Assembly: GCA_009782175.1 (NCBI GenBank)
Contig: WRKR01000001.1
Location: 1 to 64,000 of the forward strand
DNA: 64,000 nucleotides
Direction: 5' to 3'
DNA from: Cystobacterineae bacterium
GTDB lineage: Bacteria; Myxococcota; Myxococcia; Myxococcales; Myxococcaceae
The translations under genes and the position numbers were made by a program. The notes below the pieces were generated by a model. It did no database searches, was not told the origin of the DNA, and saw only the letters and a list, made by a program, of their open reading frames with translations. This document shows, in pieces, positions 50,831-62,727 of the stretch. How positions within the stretch are numbered: the first letter of the stretch is position 1; each line of letters opens with the position of its first letter.

Positions 50831-50903
50831 CAGGCCAGGAGGGATTCGAACCCCCAACCGTCGGTTTTGGAGACCGCTGCTCTACCGTTAGAGCTACTGG
50901 CCT
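50831..50903 (-). tRNA. tRNA-Trp (CCA)
   Basis: A 73-nt cloverleaf: acceptor AGGCCAG/CTGGCCT, anticodon loop CTCCAAA giving CCA, T loop TTCGAAT, discriminator G. It lies between rpmG and secE, the usual place. Confidence 0.95.
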
Positions 50904-50905
50904 AA

Positions 50906-51070
50906 TCACACTTTTCCTTCTTTATGCGGCATGTGTTTTCGACAACGAGGACAAAACTTGGACAGCTGAAGCTTGTCCTGCTGCTTCCGGCGGTTTTTCG
51001 TCGTCGTATAGTTGCGCTCACTGCAACCAGAACACTCCATCGAAATAATGCTTCGATTTCCTTTGGGCAT
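50906..51070 (-). CDS. rpmG: 50S ribosomal protein L33 (zinc-binding form)
   Basis: A 54-residue protein, starting [20 protein letters not shown] and carrying two CxxC pairs (Cys13/16 and Cys40/43), so the zinc-binding C+ form of L33. It ends 2 bp from tRNA-Trp. No strong ribosome site because the T/A-rich repeat lies just upstream. Confidence 0.95.
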
Positions 51071-51083
51071 AAAAAAATACCTT

Positions 51084-51136
51084 CTTCAAAAACACCACAA
51101 CTTCAAAAAAACACCACAACTTCAAAAAAAATACCA
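51084..51136. repeat. A-rich 17-19-bp tandem repeat, three units
   Basis: Three units of CTTCAAAAA(AA)ACACCACAA between the tuf terminator and rpmG. Units differ by the length of the A run. Confidence 0.85.
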
Positions 51137-51167
51137 CGAGAGGAGAAAAACCACTTTTCTCCTCTCG
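51137..51167 (-). terminator. Rho-independent terminator after tuf
   Basis: A perfect 13-bp stem (51137-51149 with 51155-51167), 5-nt loop, 11 nt after the tuf stop. On the minus strand it is followed by TGGTA and then T8. It should separate tuf from rpmG and the secE-nusG unit at least partly. Confidence 0.85.
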
Positions 51168-51178
51168 CTGCAAAACAC

Positions 51179-52369
51179 TTAAGCAATAATGCCGGTGACA
51201 GCGCCTGCACCCACCGTGCGGCCACCTTCACGAATGGCAAAACGCAAACCCGCTTCCATGGCAATGGGCGTAATCAACTCCACTTCCACTTCGACGTTGT
51301 CCCCAGGCATGATCATCTCCGAGCCCGCCGGCAATTTGACAGTCCCCGTCACGTCGGTGGTGCGGAAATAAAATTGAGGTTTATAGCCATTCACAAACGG
51401 CGTGTGGCGACCACCCTCTTCCTTCGTCAAAATATATACCTGGCCCTTAAATTTGGTGTGCGGTGTCACCGTTCCAGGCTTCGCCAACACCTGGCCACGC
51501 TCAATCTCTTCTCGCTTCAAACCGCGCAACAAGGCGCCAACATTGTCGCCTGCTTGCCCCTCATCCAAAAGCTTGCGGAACATTTCCACTCCCGTCACCA
51601 CCGTCTTGCTCGTCGCGCGAATGCCCACAATTTCTACTTCTTCGCCTACCTTAATTTTGCCTCGCTCAATGCGACCTGTCGCCACCGTGCCACGACCTTC
51701 AATGGAAAACACGTCTTCCACAGGCATCAGGAAGGGCTTGTCTATGTCTCTTTGAGGCGTGGGAATATAGGCGTCAACAGCTTCCATCAACTTCAGCAAA
51801 GAAAGCTCGCCAATTTCCGAGGTGTCGCCTTCAAGCGCTTTGAGCGCAGAGCCCGCAACAATGGGGGTTTCATTGCCGGGGAATTCATATTTGGACAACA
51901 GGTCGCGCACTTCCATTTCTACCAGCTCACGCAACTCAGGGTCATCCAACATGTCAATCTTATTCAAAAAGACGACAATATAGGGAACTCCCACCTGGCG
52001 AGCCAACAAAATGTGCTCGCGCGTCTGGGGCATGGGGCCGTCCGCAGCAGAAACCACGAGAATGGCTCCGTCCATCTGCGCAGCACCCGTTATCATATTC
52101 TTCACATAGTCGGCGTGTCCCGGACAATCCACGTGAGCATAGTGGCGGTTCTTCGTTTGGTATTCCACGTGCGCGGTGGCAATGGTTATGCCGCGTTGAC
52201 GCTCCTCAGGGGCCTTGTCAATCTGATCATAAGCCAATGCTTGACCACCACCCTGCTTGGCCAAAACCTTCGTAATCGCCGCAGTCAACGTGGTCTTCCC
52301 GTGGTCAACGTGGCCGATGGTGCCAATATTCACGTGCGGCTTCGATCTCTCGAATTTCTCCTTGCTCAT
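51179..52369 (-). CDS. tuf: Elongation factor Tu
   Basis: The 396-residue GTPase that delivers aminoacyl-tRNA. Motifs: [14 protein letters not shown] at 19-32, [29 protein letters not shown] and NKIDM. AGAGGG precedes the ATG. It follows the four-tRNA cluster; the order tRNAs-tuf-rpmG-tRNA-Trp-secE is common in proteobacteria and Myxococcota. Confidence 0.98.
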
Positions 52370-52406
52370 AATTTCCCTCTTAAAAACCAGCGTTCTACTT
52401 CAATGG

Positions 52407-52479
52407 TGCCCTGATCCAGGATTGAACTGGAGACCTCATCCTTACCAAGGATGCGCTCTGCCAACTGAGCTACCAGGGC
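52407..52479 (-). tRNA. tRNA-Thr (GGT)
   Basis: A 73-nt cloverleaf: acceptor GCCCTGG/TCAGGGC, anticodon loop TTGGTAA giving GGT, T loop TTCAATC, discriminator A. CCA is not encoded. Confidence 0.95.
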
Positions 52480-52530
52480 TTGAAAAAACTCCTCTTCAGC
52501 TTCAACTGTCCTTCAACAACAAAAAACCAG

Positions 52531-52603
<73 letters not shown>

Positions 52604-52750
52604 AATGCACGCCTCTTCTTCAACTCATGCCCCTTCTTCTGCATTCAACCCCCTTCGCCGCTCATTCAAATGCCCTCGCCCTTCAACACCCCTGCTTCAA
52701 TAAACCCAACATAGCCCCTTCACCTCGTGCCGCTTCCGCCACTGCAACCT

Positions 52751-52834
52751 TGGAGGGAGTTGGATTCGAACCAACGAAGGCGCTATGCCGGCAGATTTAC
52801 AGTCTGCTCCCTTTGGCCTCTCGGGCATCCCTCC
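52751..52834 (-). tRNA. tRNA-Tyr (GTA)
   Basis: An 84-nt class II tRNA: acceptor GGAGGGA/TCCCTCC, anticodon loop CTGTAAA giving GTA, long variable arm, discriminator A. Confidence 0.95.
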
Positions 52835-52926
52835 AAAACAACTTCTGCTCAACACCCCTTCATCCTCAACACCGCTGCTGCTCAAAACCACGCTCTGCCT
52901 TCTTCACCCTCCTCTCTCCATATCCT

Positions 52927-52999
52927 GGCCGGCGGCGGGACTCGAACCCGCGACCTACTGATTACAAATCAGTTGCTCTACCAGCTGAGCTACACCGGC
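52927..52999 (-). tRNA. tRNA-Thr (TGT)
   Basis: Acceptor GCCGGTG/CGCCGGC, anticodon loop TTTGTAA giving TGT, T arm GCGGG/CCCGC. The discriminator position reads C rather than the usual A or T of tRNA-Thr, and CCA is not encoded. Thr identity rests on the anticodon and gene order. Confidence 0.9.
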
Positions 53000-59407: not shown

Positions 59408-60991
59408 GTGAAATTCCCCTTTTTGTTTTTTGGTTTTTTATATGCCCTTAGCCTTTCTTGCCAAGGCGGCTTAGCGTTTTCTGAAAACATTCCAAAGCAT
59501 ACGGCCAACAGCCATGTGGATGCCTATGGTGGTTATTTTTTATATGGCTCCAACATGGGTTGGCTGAATGAAAATTGGAGGGATGAAGACATTGCCGACA
59601 TTTTAATAGGGAATGAAACCCAAGGCATAGAAGGTGTGGGGGTGCGCAGTCTGCGTCCAGCGCTCTATGAAGACTTTGTTGAGAGATGGGGGTATGACAT
59701 TAAAGTCAACACTTTTAAATATTATGCGGAGCAGGGCGCAAAACACCATGTGGTTTTTATTGGCGACAGGCCTTCAGAGCAGCATCGCGAAAAAAAACAA
59801 CATGTGCCGGGTGTGCCGTCGAGCTCCTATGAAAACCTCTATGAGCCTGTTTGGATAGAAAACGAAAGCGGGACAAGCATCAACGAGAACAATGTTTATG
59901 CGTTATATGTTTATAAACTTGTTCAAAACTATAAAAACCATGTCCAGTTTTGGGAAATAAAAAACGAGCCTGATTTAACGGATTCCCCCTGTGGATGGGC
60001 GCATGCCGGAACGGAATGCAATTGGTGGGACAGAAATCCCTCGCCGGCTGAGCTTATTCATTTTCATGCGCCCATTCAAAGCTATATCCGCATGTTGAGA
60101 ATCTCCTATGAGGTTATTAAGTCCGTGGACCCCAAAGCCTATATTTGCATAGGGGGCATTGGATATGAAAGTTTTCTGGACGCGGTTTTGCGCAATACGG
60201 ACAATCCAGACCATGGAAAAGTTGCAGAGCGCTATCCCCTGAAGGGAGGCGCATGGTTTGATTGCCTCAGCTTTCACATTTATCCCATGTATTATTTAAG
60301 CAGTTGGGGCAACAACGGATGGAATTATTTTCGACACTCTGATGCTGCCGTTGCTGCTGTGGAAAACCAAACCAACACCTATGTGGAGCTGTTGAAAAAA
60401 TATGGTTATGGAATGGAATACCCCACCAAGGAAATGATTATTAGTGAAACCAATATTCCCAACAAACAAATAGGCACTTCCATTGGCTCAGAAGAAGCCC
60501 AGCGAAATTATTTGATGAAATTGGCCATTTCCGCTCAAAAACAACACCTTCGGGGGGTATACCCCTTTAGTGTTTGGGACAACAGTGAACAAAATGCCTA
60601 TGGTGACGAATATGCGTTTATGGGGTTTTATAAACCGCTTCCCGAGTTGCCCCGTGGGCCACTCAGAATAAATGAAGCAGGCATAGGGTGGCGCACCACA
60701 AGCAAATGGCTTGGTCAGCGAAAATATGACGAAAATGAAACACAACGTTTAGCTCTTCCTTCAAACATAGAGGGAGGCGCTTTTTATTCAGAGGACTCAG
60801 ATGACTATGTTTATGTGCTCTGGGCAAAAACAACCGCGGATTTGAGCGAAGAAGCCTCAGCCTCATATCGTTTTCCTGCCTCAATGAATGTCAAAGAAAT
60901 AACCTCCACCCATTGGACTGAAAACCAAACCCTTGTTGCGGGGAATAGCCTCCACCTTTCGGGAACGCCTCTCTTTATTCAAATAAAATGA
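59408..60991 (+). CDS. Secreted glycoside hydrolase-like protein, clan GH-A fold
   Basis: The 527-residue protein starts at a GTG and has a signal peptide (about residues 1-22). The catalytic region has the acid/base in WEIKNEPD (Glu187) and the probable nucleophile in IISETN (Glu347), the spacing of TIM-barrel clan GH-A enzymes. The exact family (GH5, GH39, GH30 or another) and substrate cannot be told. A C-terminal beta-sandwich (about 440-527) follows. The gene looks more A+T-rich than fumA and may have been acquired. A Cys at 18 sits in SLSC, not a canonical lipobox. Confidence 0.8.
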   Translation: MKFPFLFFGFLYALSLSCQGGLAFSENIPKHTANSHVDAYGGYFLYGSNMGWLNENWRDEDIADILIGNETQGIEGVGVRSLRPALYEDFVERWGYDIKVNTFKYYAEQGAKHHVVFIGDRPSEQHREKKQHVPGVPSSSYENLYEPVWIENESGTSINENNVYALYVYKLVQNYKNHVQFWEIKNEPDLTDSPCGWAHAGTECNWWDRNPSPAELIHFHAPIQSYIRMLRISYEVIKSVDPKAYICIGGIGYESFLDAVLRNTDNPDHGKVAERYPLKGGAWFDCLSFHIYPMYYLSSWGNNGWNYFRHSDAAVAAVENQTNTYVELLKKYGYGMEYPTKEMIISETNIPNKQIGTSIGSEEAQRNYLMKLAISAQKQHLRGVYPFSVWDNSEQNAYGDEYAFMGFYKPLPELPRGPLRINEAGIGWRTTSKWLGQRKYDENETQRLALPSNIEGGAFYSEDSDDYVYVLWAKTTADLSEEASASYRFPASMNVKEITSTHWTENQTLVAGNSLHLSGTPLFIQIK

Positions 60992-61017
60992 AACTTGACA
61001 AGGCAGCCCCTCAAAAC

Positions 61018-61212
61018 TAAAAGAGGCGCCACCTTTAGGTTCCATGGAGGACTTTCAAAGGGAAGCCGGTGGAAATCCGGCGCGGTCCCGCCACTGTAAC
61101 CAAGCCGGCGAGAAGCCGGGCGGGGGTTGTTCGCTGTGCCACTGCGCCTTGAGCGTGGGAAGGCATCAACACCCGCTATCGTGCTTGGAAGCCAGGAAAC
61201 CTGCCTAAAGGT
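61018..61212 (+). promoter_or_regulatory. Cobalamin (AdoCbl-type) riboswitch
   Basis: The conserved core is clear: GAAGCCGGTG-like segment at about 61066-61076, GCGCGGTCCCGCCACTGTAA with the B12 box at 61080-61099, and the 3' element GAAGCCAGGAAACCTGCC at about 61189-61206. It lies 180 nt before the ATG at 61390. High cobamide is expected to switch the downstream gene off. Confidence 0.95.
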
Positions 61213-61235
61213 GCGCTTTGCAGCGCTTTAGCCTT

Positions 61236-61254
61236 CTCTCTTCGCGGAAGAGAG
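61236..61254 (+). promoter_or_regulatory. Stem-loop in the riboswitch expression platform region
   Basis: CTCTCTTC/GAAGAGAG, a perfect 8-bp stem with loop GCG, about 25 nt after the aptamer. A smaller GCGC stem lies at 61213-61226. No T run is seen, so control may act on translation or through Rho. Confidence 0.45.
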
Positions 61255-61389
61255 CAGAGGGCATATGTATGGGTGGGTTGTTGCCATTTTTGCTGGATAC
61301 ATGCCTCCGGAAGCGCCGGGGTTGCATGCCTCCTCCACCCTTGCGTTGCCCCCACTCCAACAACCCAACCCCAAAGGAAAACACTGAAA

Positions 61390-62727
61390 ATGAAAAAATT
61401 TCTGCTCCTGTTGTCTGTCTCTGTTGTGCTGGCAGGCTGCTCTGAAAACGACAGCAACAACTTGACAAATCCAATCATCCAGGCGGAAACCAGCTTGTGC
61501 GACGGCCACCATGTTGACTTGCAAATAAACCCCTCGCACTGCGGCGCGTGCGGAAATAGCTGCGCTGCAGAAGAAAGCTGCGTGGCAGGCGTCTGCAACC
61601 CCGCTCCCACCTATTTGTGCGACGACGACCATGCTGTTGACTTGCAAACCAACCCCGCGCACTGCGGCGCGTGCGGAAATAGCTGCGCTGCAGAAGAAAG
61701 TTGTGTGGCGGGCGTCTGCGGCCTCTCTCCCCAAATGAGGGTGGTGGCCTCTGCCAGTGGGGTTGCAAGGCAATGGTTTCGCCTGGCGCCAGAAGTCGAA
61801 AGCGACAGCGCCACGCACTATAGCTGGGTGCTTAACGGTGAAGAAATATCCACAGAGCAAAACCTTGTGCATGTTTTTGCTGAGGCAGGAAACTATGCGC
61901 TGACATTCACCGCCACCAATGCGGCGGGGGCGAGTGTGCGGAATATTTCGGTGCGCATAGACGCGCCCGCCCAAGCCTATAACCCTTGGACAAGCACAGT
62001 TTATGACTTTGTGCGCGCGCCTGGGCAATATGCCAACACCATTCCAACCATACCTGCCGGAAGCACGAAGGACGCGGTTTTGGCCATTGTCGAGTCAACC
62101 ATTGCCTCAAGAGGCCTCGTGAGTTTGGGCGCATATGGTGGATATATTGTCATGGGGTTTGGGCACACGGTGGTGAATGGCCCTGGGAATGACTTTATTG
62201 TCCACGGGAATGCCTTTGCCGGCTTTGCGGAGCCGGGGGTTATTGAGGTTTCTTGGGACGCCAACGGCAACGGCCTGCCGGATGACGCATGGTATGAGAT
62301 TGCGGGCTCCGAATATTATACAGCAAGCGCCATCCACAACTATGTGCTCACCTACCATAACCCGGCGACGGACACAGAGCGCGAGGCGGGGGCGACGGGG
62401 ACGCGCTGGAGCGACAACCAAGGGCGCGCGGGCTATTTCCCCGCAACGGGCTGGCCCAACTGGATGGGAGACACCATTGTGGTGGGCGGCTCCCTCTATA
62501 ACAATGGGGGCTCTATGGCTGCATTCGCCTATGGCTATGCCGACAACTGGCCAAACAGCGACGAGCGCGCGCAAATAGACATAGACTTAGCCGTGGATGC
62601 GAATGGAAACCCTGTACACCTCAAAGGCATCGACTTTATAAAAGTATATACGGGTGTGCTCCACCACGCCGGCGCCCTCGGGGAAATTTCCACGGAAGTT
62701 ATGGGCGCAGAAGACTTAAGCCTATAG
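61390..62727 (+). CDS. B12-riboswitch-controlled surface lipoprotein, candidate cobamide-binding protein
   Basis: The 445-residue lipoprotein (lipobox LAGC, Cys17) has two near-identical Cys-rich units (about 37-69 and 77-110; core HCGACGNSCAAEESCVAGVC), as in many myxobacterial surface proteins. A PKD-like domain follows (about 115-192). The C-terminal domain (about 198-445) with GAYGGYIVMGFGHTVV, NGNGLPDDAWYEIAGSEY and STEVMGAEDL resembles surface proteins encoded beside btuB in Bacteroidetes cobamide loci. A role in capturing B12 at the cell surface is inferred. No btuB or TonB gene is adjacent. Start at 61390, no strong ribosome site. Confidence 0.85.
   Translation: MKKFLLLLSVSVVLAGCSENDSNNLTNPIIQAETSLCDGHHVDLQINPSHCGACGNSCAAEESCVAGVCNPAPTYLCDDDHAVDLQTNPAHCGACGNSCAAEESCVAGVCGLSPQMRVVASASGVARQWFRLAPEVESDSATHYSWVLNGEEISTEQNLVHVFAEAGNYALTFTATNAAGASVRNISVRIDAPAQAYNPWTSTVYDFVRAPGQYANTIPTIPAGSTKDAVLAIVESTIASRGLVSLGAYGGYIVMGFGHTVVNGPGNDFIVHGNAFAGFAEPGVIEVSWDANGNGLPDDAWYEIAGSEYYTASAIHNYVLTYHNPATDTEREAGATGTRWSDNQGRAGYFPATGWPNWMGDTIVVGGSLYNNGGSMAAFAYGYADNWPNSDERAQIDIDLAVDANGNPVHLKGIDFIKVYTGVLHHAGALGEISTEVMGAEDLSL

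Follow-up and report, generated by a model that had tools for sequence, protein, structure and literature searches.

The window, a stretch of 64,000 nt (positions 1 to 64,000 of contig WRKR01000001.1) from the draft genome of a Cystobacterineae bacterium (GCA_009782175.1, 65 contigs), carries on its plus strand a cobalamin riboswitch aptamer (61020..61222; RF00174, 91.2 bits, E = 2.8e-21), a 40-codon leader open reading frame (ORF, 61265..61387), and a btuH-like gene encoding a lipoprotein of 445 residues (61390..62727, with its ATG at 61390 and its stop at 62727). The aptamer covers the full model (1-189), scores far over the gathering threshold of 31.5 bits, and ends 167 nt before the start of the btuH-like gene, in agreement with the earlier note, made from the letters of this DNA, which had placed a cobalamin aptamer ahead of a lipoprotein. 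The same note had seen no transporter gene next to it, and indeed the neighbors are an ORF without any Pfam match (59408-60991) and a convergent carB. The product of this ORF has 527 residues and a signal-like N-terminus; with a GC content of 0.446 against about 0.57 around it, it is perhaps another acquired gene. Five tRNA genes are clustered on the minus strand at 50831-52999.

By inspection, the lipoprotein starts with the export signal MKKFLLLLSVSVVLAGC (61390..61440), with a lipobox LAGC and Cys17, to which Pfam LPAM_1 gives a weak match below the cut-off (E = 0.007). It is followed by two tandem Cys-rich repeats (61486..61722), whose copies are 88% identical as DNA and which match Pfam Stig1 (E = 2.9e-12) and NCBIfam C_rich_MXAN6577 (E = 2.8e-20), then by one PKD domain (61741..61959; Pfam PKD_3, E = 4.1e-10) and a C-terminal domain of ~250 residues (61975..62724). 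The N-terminal repeats are shared with the MXAN_6577-like and STIG1-like Cys-rich lipoproteins, but the window protein stays under the curated cut-off of the MXAN_6577-like family NF041328 (72.7 vs 100 bits), the repeats alone being matched. Besides this protein and a propeller lipoprotein encoded on contig 36, the sole further protein of the genome with such repeats is encoded on contig 63 (L120:2-1258), where its gene adjoins a phosphoglycerate mutase-like gene.

Riboswitch and leader of the btuH-like gene

The genome contains exactly two cobalamin riboswitches, one in the window and one on contig 36 before a btuB operon. A block of the window (60995..61316) is 80% identical (262/327) to the 5′ region of this btuB (about 20308-20630 of contig 36), and the identity passes through the aptamer and the following hairpin into the first ~17 codons of btuB. 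In the riboswitch tree, the four switches of the genus form one clade (100/99), and the window copy pairs with the contig-36 copy (90/62), so the copying probably happened in this lineage, the support for this timing being moderate. Judged from these sequence comparisons, the window riboswitch is an in-genome duplicate of the native btuB switch. A riboswitch transferred together with the gene was ruled out, since the window copy falls inside the clade of the genus and shares 80% identity with the btuB switch of this very genome. The switch had been called an orphan, which is right for its position, but not for its regulation: the genome search uncovered one more switch, before btuB, a BtuG-like gene, and btuF, of which the window copy is a duplicate.

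A TTGACA hexamer separated by 17 nt from TAAAAG (60995..61023) is a tentative promoter; TTGACA recurs at the corresponding position ahead of the btuB switches in contig 36 and in genomes G001 and G002. The −10 box is weak; the TTGACA site did not pass the consensus scan, which found no promoter. After the aptamer, the stretch 61231..61262 folds as one hairpin that pairs a Shine-Dalgarno-like AGAGGG, and this hairpin is identical in contig 36, G001, and G002 and near-identical in G015. Folding of the leader was not much stronger than that of shuffled sequences (z −1.6 and −1.2). A terminator was rejected as the expression platform, since the hairpin is not followed by a T run and the scan showed no terminator-like site on the plus strand; the hairpin would rather act on translation. 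The E. coli btuB riboswitch exerts translational control through an RF00174 aptamer and a hairpin hiding the ribosome site. The window copy shares the aptamer class and such a hairpin, but its duplication included a fragment of btuB, and it now precedes another gene.

This fragment forms the leader ORF, a remnant of the btuB signal region (MYGWVVAIFAGYMPPEA... vs MYWWVVAILARPMSPEA... in the contig-36 BtuB), and because its stop lies 2 nt from the btuH ATG, we propose that the two are translationally coupled. With adenosylcobalamin bound, the riboswitch would favor the hairpin hiding AGAGGG, and the leader ORF would be little translated; by coupling across the leader stop (61387), the btuH start at 61390 would be little translated too. 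When cobamides are scarce, both the leader ORF and btuH would be translated. We infer both the riboswitch regulation and the coupling. It could also be that the riboswitch governs only the leader ORF and that translation of btuH is constitutive, starting from an AAAGGA of its own located about 11 nt ahead of the ATG, the ribosome site hidden by the hairpin being some 130 nt upstream. We consider this unlikely, though worth keeping in mind, as the leader ORF has stayed open over its 40 codons up to the btuH start and both aptamer and hairpin have been conserved despite the duplication.

The C-terminal domain and its ligand

Neither Pfam nor NCBIfam names the C-terminal 250-residue domain. Searching residues 196-445 against all PDB sequences returned 8blw_B, the H-domain of BtuG1 (E = 3.9e-47), and 7biz_A, BtuH2 (E = 1.8e-40), and no chains beyond 8blw and 7biz. 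The AlphaFold model of the whole protein is mostly confident over residues 130-445, where most 10-residue blocks reach 85-97 pLDDT, and does not resolve the first 104 residues; the top three PDB matches of the fold search were 7biz_B, 7biz_A, and 8blw_B (E = 3.9e-29 to 5.4e-25). Whole-length homology to BtuH2 and BtuG1, in sequence and in the predicted model, clearly makes it a BtuH domain. The earlier note had likened it to domains of Bacteroidetes btuB loci and had proposed structure prediction and search as a check, and it proved correct on this point. DUF4465 (BtuJ) was rejected for this domain: it gave no Pfam match, whereas BtuH matches strongly.

BtuH2 (BT1956 of Bacteroides thetaiotaomicron, 7BIZ) is a proven B12-binding surface lipoprotein, with its binding, structure, and fitness role reported (PMC8941943). 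Like BtuH2, the window protein is a lipoprotein in which PKD/Ig-like domain(s) precede BtuH, its gene follows a B12 riboswitch that probably controls it, and the nucleotide-loop residues are conserved. It differs by having one PKD domain where BtuH2 has three, two Cys-rich repeats in front, and a Myxococcota host, and its gene stands alone and not in a btuB operon. The closest solved sequence is the H-domain of BtuG1 (8BLW), which is fused to the BtuG propeller and bound to BtuB1 (PMC10404256); here, in contrast, BtuH is a separate protein and the propeller is encoded at the other riboswitch locus. The domain class has been known since mBio 2022, and three Firmicutes homologs were reported there (PMC8941943). 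Hence, an occurrence outside Bacteroidetes, which had been put forward as a new component, is not new in itself. With BtuH itself known, the novelty lies in the taxon of the host, in the joining of Cys-rich repeats to PKD and BtuH, and in the btuB leader that was captured.

Half of the eight B12-touching residues of BtuH2 are replaced or deleted in the window domain. The residues contacting the nucleotide loop and the lower ligand remain (Gln333, Asn399, Phe401, and Leu578 correspond to Q213, N274, F276, and L430), but those for the side chains of the corrin are gone: the His476 loop is deleted, and Tyr510, Trp511, and Trp577 are replaced by S375, M376, and A429. Position 577 also varies among the Bacteroidota relatives (A, S, I, D, or F), so we do not treat the corrin contacts as family-defining, though they still weigh on the claim of binding. 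From its sequence, the protein is likely, but not certain, to bind a cobamide, and its affinity or choice of ligand may differ because the four corrin-ring contacts are missing. The ligand might even have changed, the metal/nucleotide-loop site being kept while another corrinoid (such as incomplete or base-free cobamides) is bound, or the protein might be a weak scavenger; that the His loop and the Trp and Tyr contacts to corrin side chains are lost next to a remaining Gln, Asn, and Asp-rich motif would fit this, as would the long branch of the domain. This appears improbable to us, as residue 577, being variable in the relatives, may not be critical and the control by a B12 riboswitch keeps the link to cobamides.

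Descent of the PKD-BtuH part

A search of 84,980 species genomes yielded 551 relatives, and the best 80, which were kept, all belong to Bacteroidota wherever their group is named. Over its full length, the BtuH domain shares about 40-52% identity with Bacteroidota proteins, and in a tree of 95 rows it falls, on a long branch, within the Bacteroidota range, in a set of 42 rows (starred) rich in Flavobacteriaceae, Weeksellaceae, and Chitinophagaceae. The PKD domain is homologous to that of the Flavobacterium BtuH proteins, and proteins of Flavobacterium and Chitinophaga align with the window protein from about residue 112-126 on, at or slightly before PKD, which argues that PKD and BtuH moved together. 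As both align with Bacteroidota as one unit, the Cys-rich module alone is a local addition. The PKD-BtuH lipoproteins of Flavobacterium and Chitinophaga (L041, L044, and L054) share this unit in about 370-390 residues, without the Cys-rich module, and only one of the 22 members tested, the window protein, carries Stig1 repeats. The domain fusion suggested earlier is thus retained for the Cys-rich module, joined locally, but not for PKD, which came together with BtuH; likewise, the suggested transfer holds across phyla for the protein but not for the riboswitch, a native duplicate. At the level of sequence, these comparisons establish that the PKD-BtuH part descends from a Bacteroidota-type protein. 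No foreign base composition was seen: the GC content of the gene (0.567) resembles that of carB (0.579) and bioB (0.575), so the transfer did not happen very recently.

Within the phylum, a full BtuH domain was found in one of 195 genomes, that of the window itself, and four other genomes encode short, divergent BtuH-like lipoproteins (L127:4557-6783, L130:9094-11220, L128, and L129; by eye, NCBIfam LIC_13355-like), most of them near B12 riboswitches. Such riboswitches are present at nine of the ten loci with BtuH or BtuH-like genes. The short proteins were rejected as the source, being too distant. They could suggest that BtuH is ancestral in myxobacteria and was lost in the relatives, with no transfer at all, but they match only about 90 of the 250 residues (hhalign E = 1.5e-9), against the full-length identity to Bacteroidota, and btuH is absent from both congener genomes examined, also beside carB, which makes this reading very improbable. 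The carB-side comparison in these two congeners met differing neighbors, so the insertion event was not reconstructed. An assembly or binning artefact that mixed a Bacteroidota gene into the contig might be thought of for a cross-phylum gene in a draft of 65 contigs, but it is hardly credible given that the gene sits between a native-type riboswitch and a carB 92-94% identical to that of the congeners, on a contig of 284 kb, with a GC content matching its neighbors and a contamination estimate of 0.21%.

Cobamide uptake in the host

The riboswitch of contig 36 precedes btuB, a Cys-rich propeller lipoprotein, and a btuF-like gene, in that order (L003:8383-12694), and the best PDB match of the btuB product is BtuB. 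The top ten PDB matches of the propeller in a fold search include 8okv, 3dsm, 8blw, and 8bmz (12-14% identity, TMt about 0.7 for most) and are mostly BtuG structures, whereas the phmmer matches were a gluconolactonase and a YVTN surface-layer protein and did not include BtuG. By fold search and operon order, the protein is a lipoprotein with a beta-propeller whose gene accompanies btuB behind a B12 riboswitch. Relatives of the propeller occur in 132 of the 195 phylum genomes. For 25 of the 35 genomes from the family, a reading by eye puts the propeller gene on the strand of a B12 riboswitch and about 2-2.8 kb downstream from it, and at all nine loci inspected directly, the riboswitch is followed by btuB and then by the propeller. 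The literature searched contained no report of BtuG or BtuH in Myxococcota. The btuH-like gene is outside this operon, which is the genome's sole btuB operon under a B12 riboswitch, and shares its switch by duplication. As riboswitch, btuB, and propeller recur and the propeller has a BtuG-like fold, the BtuH protein most likely serves this native BtuB/BtuG-like system.

Biosynthesis was probed by single protein families. The one tetrapyrrole methylase (TP_methylase) gene of the genome is RsmI-like by reading, so corrin-ring methylases are not encoded. A MetH-like protein, a methylmalonyl-CoA mutase adjoining a MeaB-like gene, a PduO-type adenosyltransferase, and one FecCD permease are present. 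Scavenging of B12 makes sense with the corrin-ring methylases missing while MetH, methylmalonyl-CoA mutase, and adenosyltransferase are present, and, as predicted from these families, the host must import cobamides. In Bacteroidetes, the copy number of btuH tracks the lack of B12 synthesis (PMC8941943).

Taken as a whole, the locus is best explained, with a probability of roughly three in four, as encoding a cobamide-capturing BtuH lipoprotein that feeds BtuB, the BtuG-like propeller, and BtuF in a host unable to make the corrin ring. As the sequences show, the PKD-BtuH part was acquired from a Bacteroidota-type protein, with a local Cys-rich module placed after the lipobox, and the host's own btuB promoter hexamer, riboswitch, ribosome-site hairpin, and first codons were duplicated in front of the gene. 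Anchored in the outer membrane, the lipoprotein would bind cobamides outside the cell and hand them over to the single-locus BtuB/BtuG-like/BtuF system; we infer this capture, the surface exposure, and the hand-over to BtuB from the characterized BtuH2 and BtuG. More tentatively, and with the odds somewhat against it, the acquired capture gene would have been wired into the vitamin regulon by the btuB 5′ duplication, with the leader opening the btuH start and the corrin contacts changed to suit a Myxococcota-type BtuB/BtuG-like partner.

The locus offers a readable case of a gene acquiring its regulation after transfer: the protein descends from Bacteroidota, and in front of it stands a copy of the host btuB switch to which part of btuB is still joined. 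In addition, lipoprotein-assisted B12 capture by systems like BtuB/BtuG/BtuH seems to extend past Bacteroidota into Myxococcota. The operon of riboswitch, btuB, Cys-rich propeller, and btuF recurs across the family and order (L168-L176), and G001 has another btuB (L167) lying between two propeller genes in a BtuG-BtuB-BtuG arrangement.
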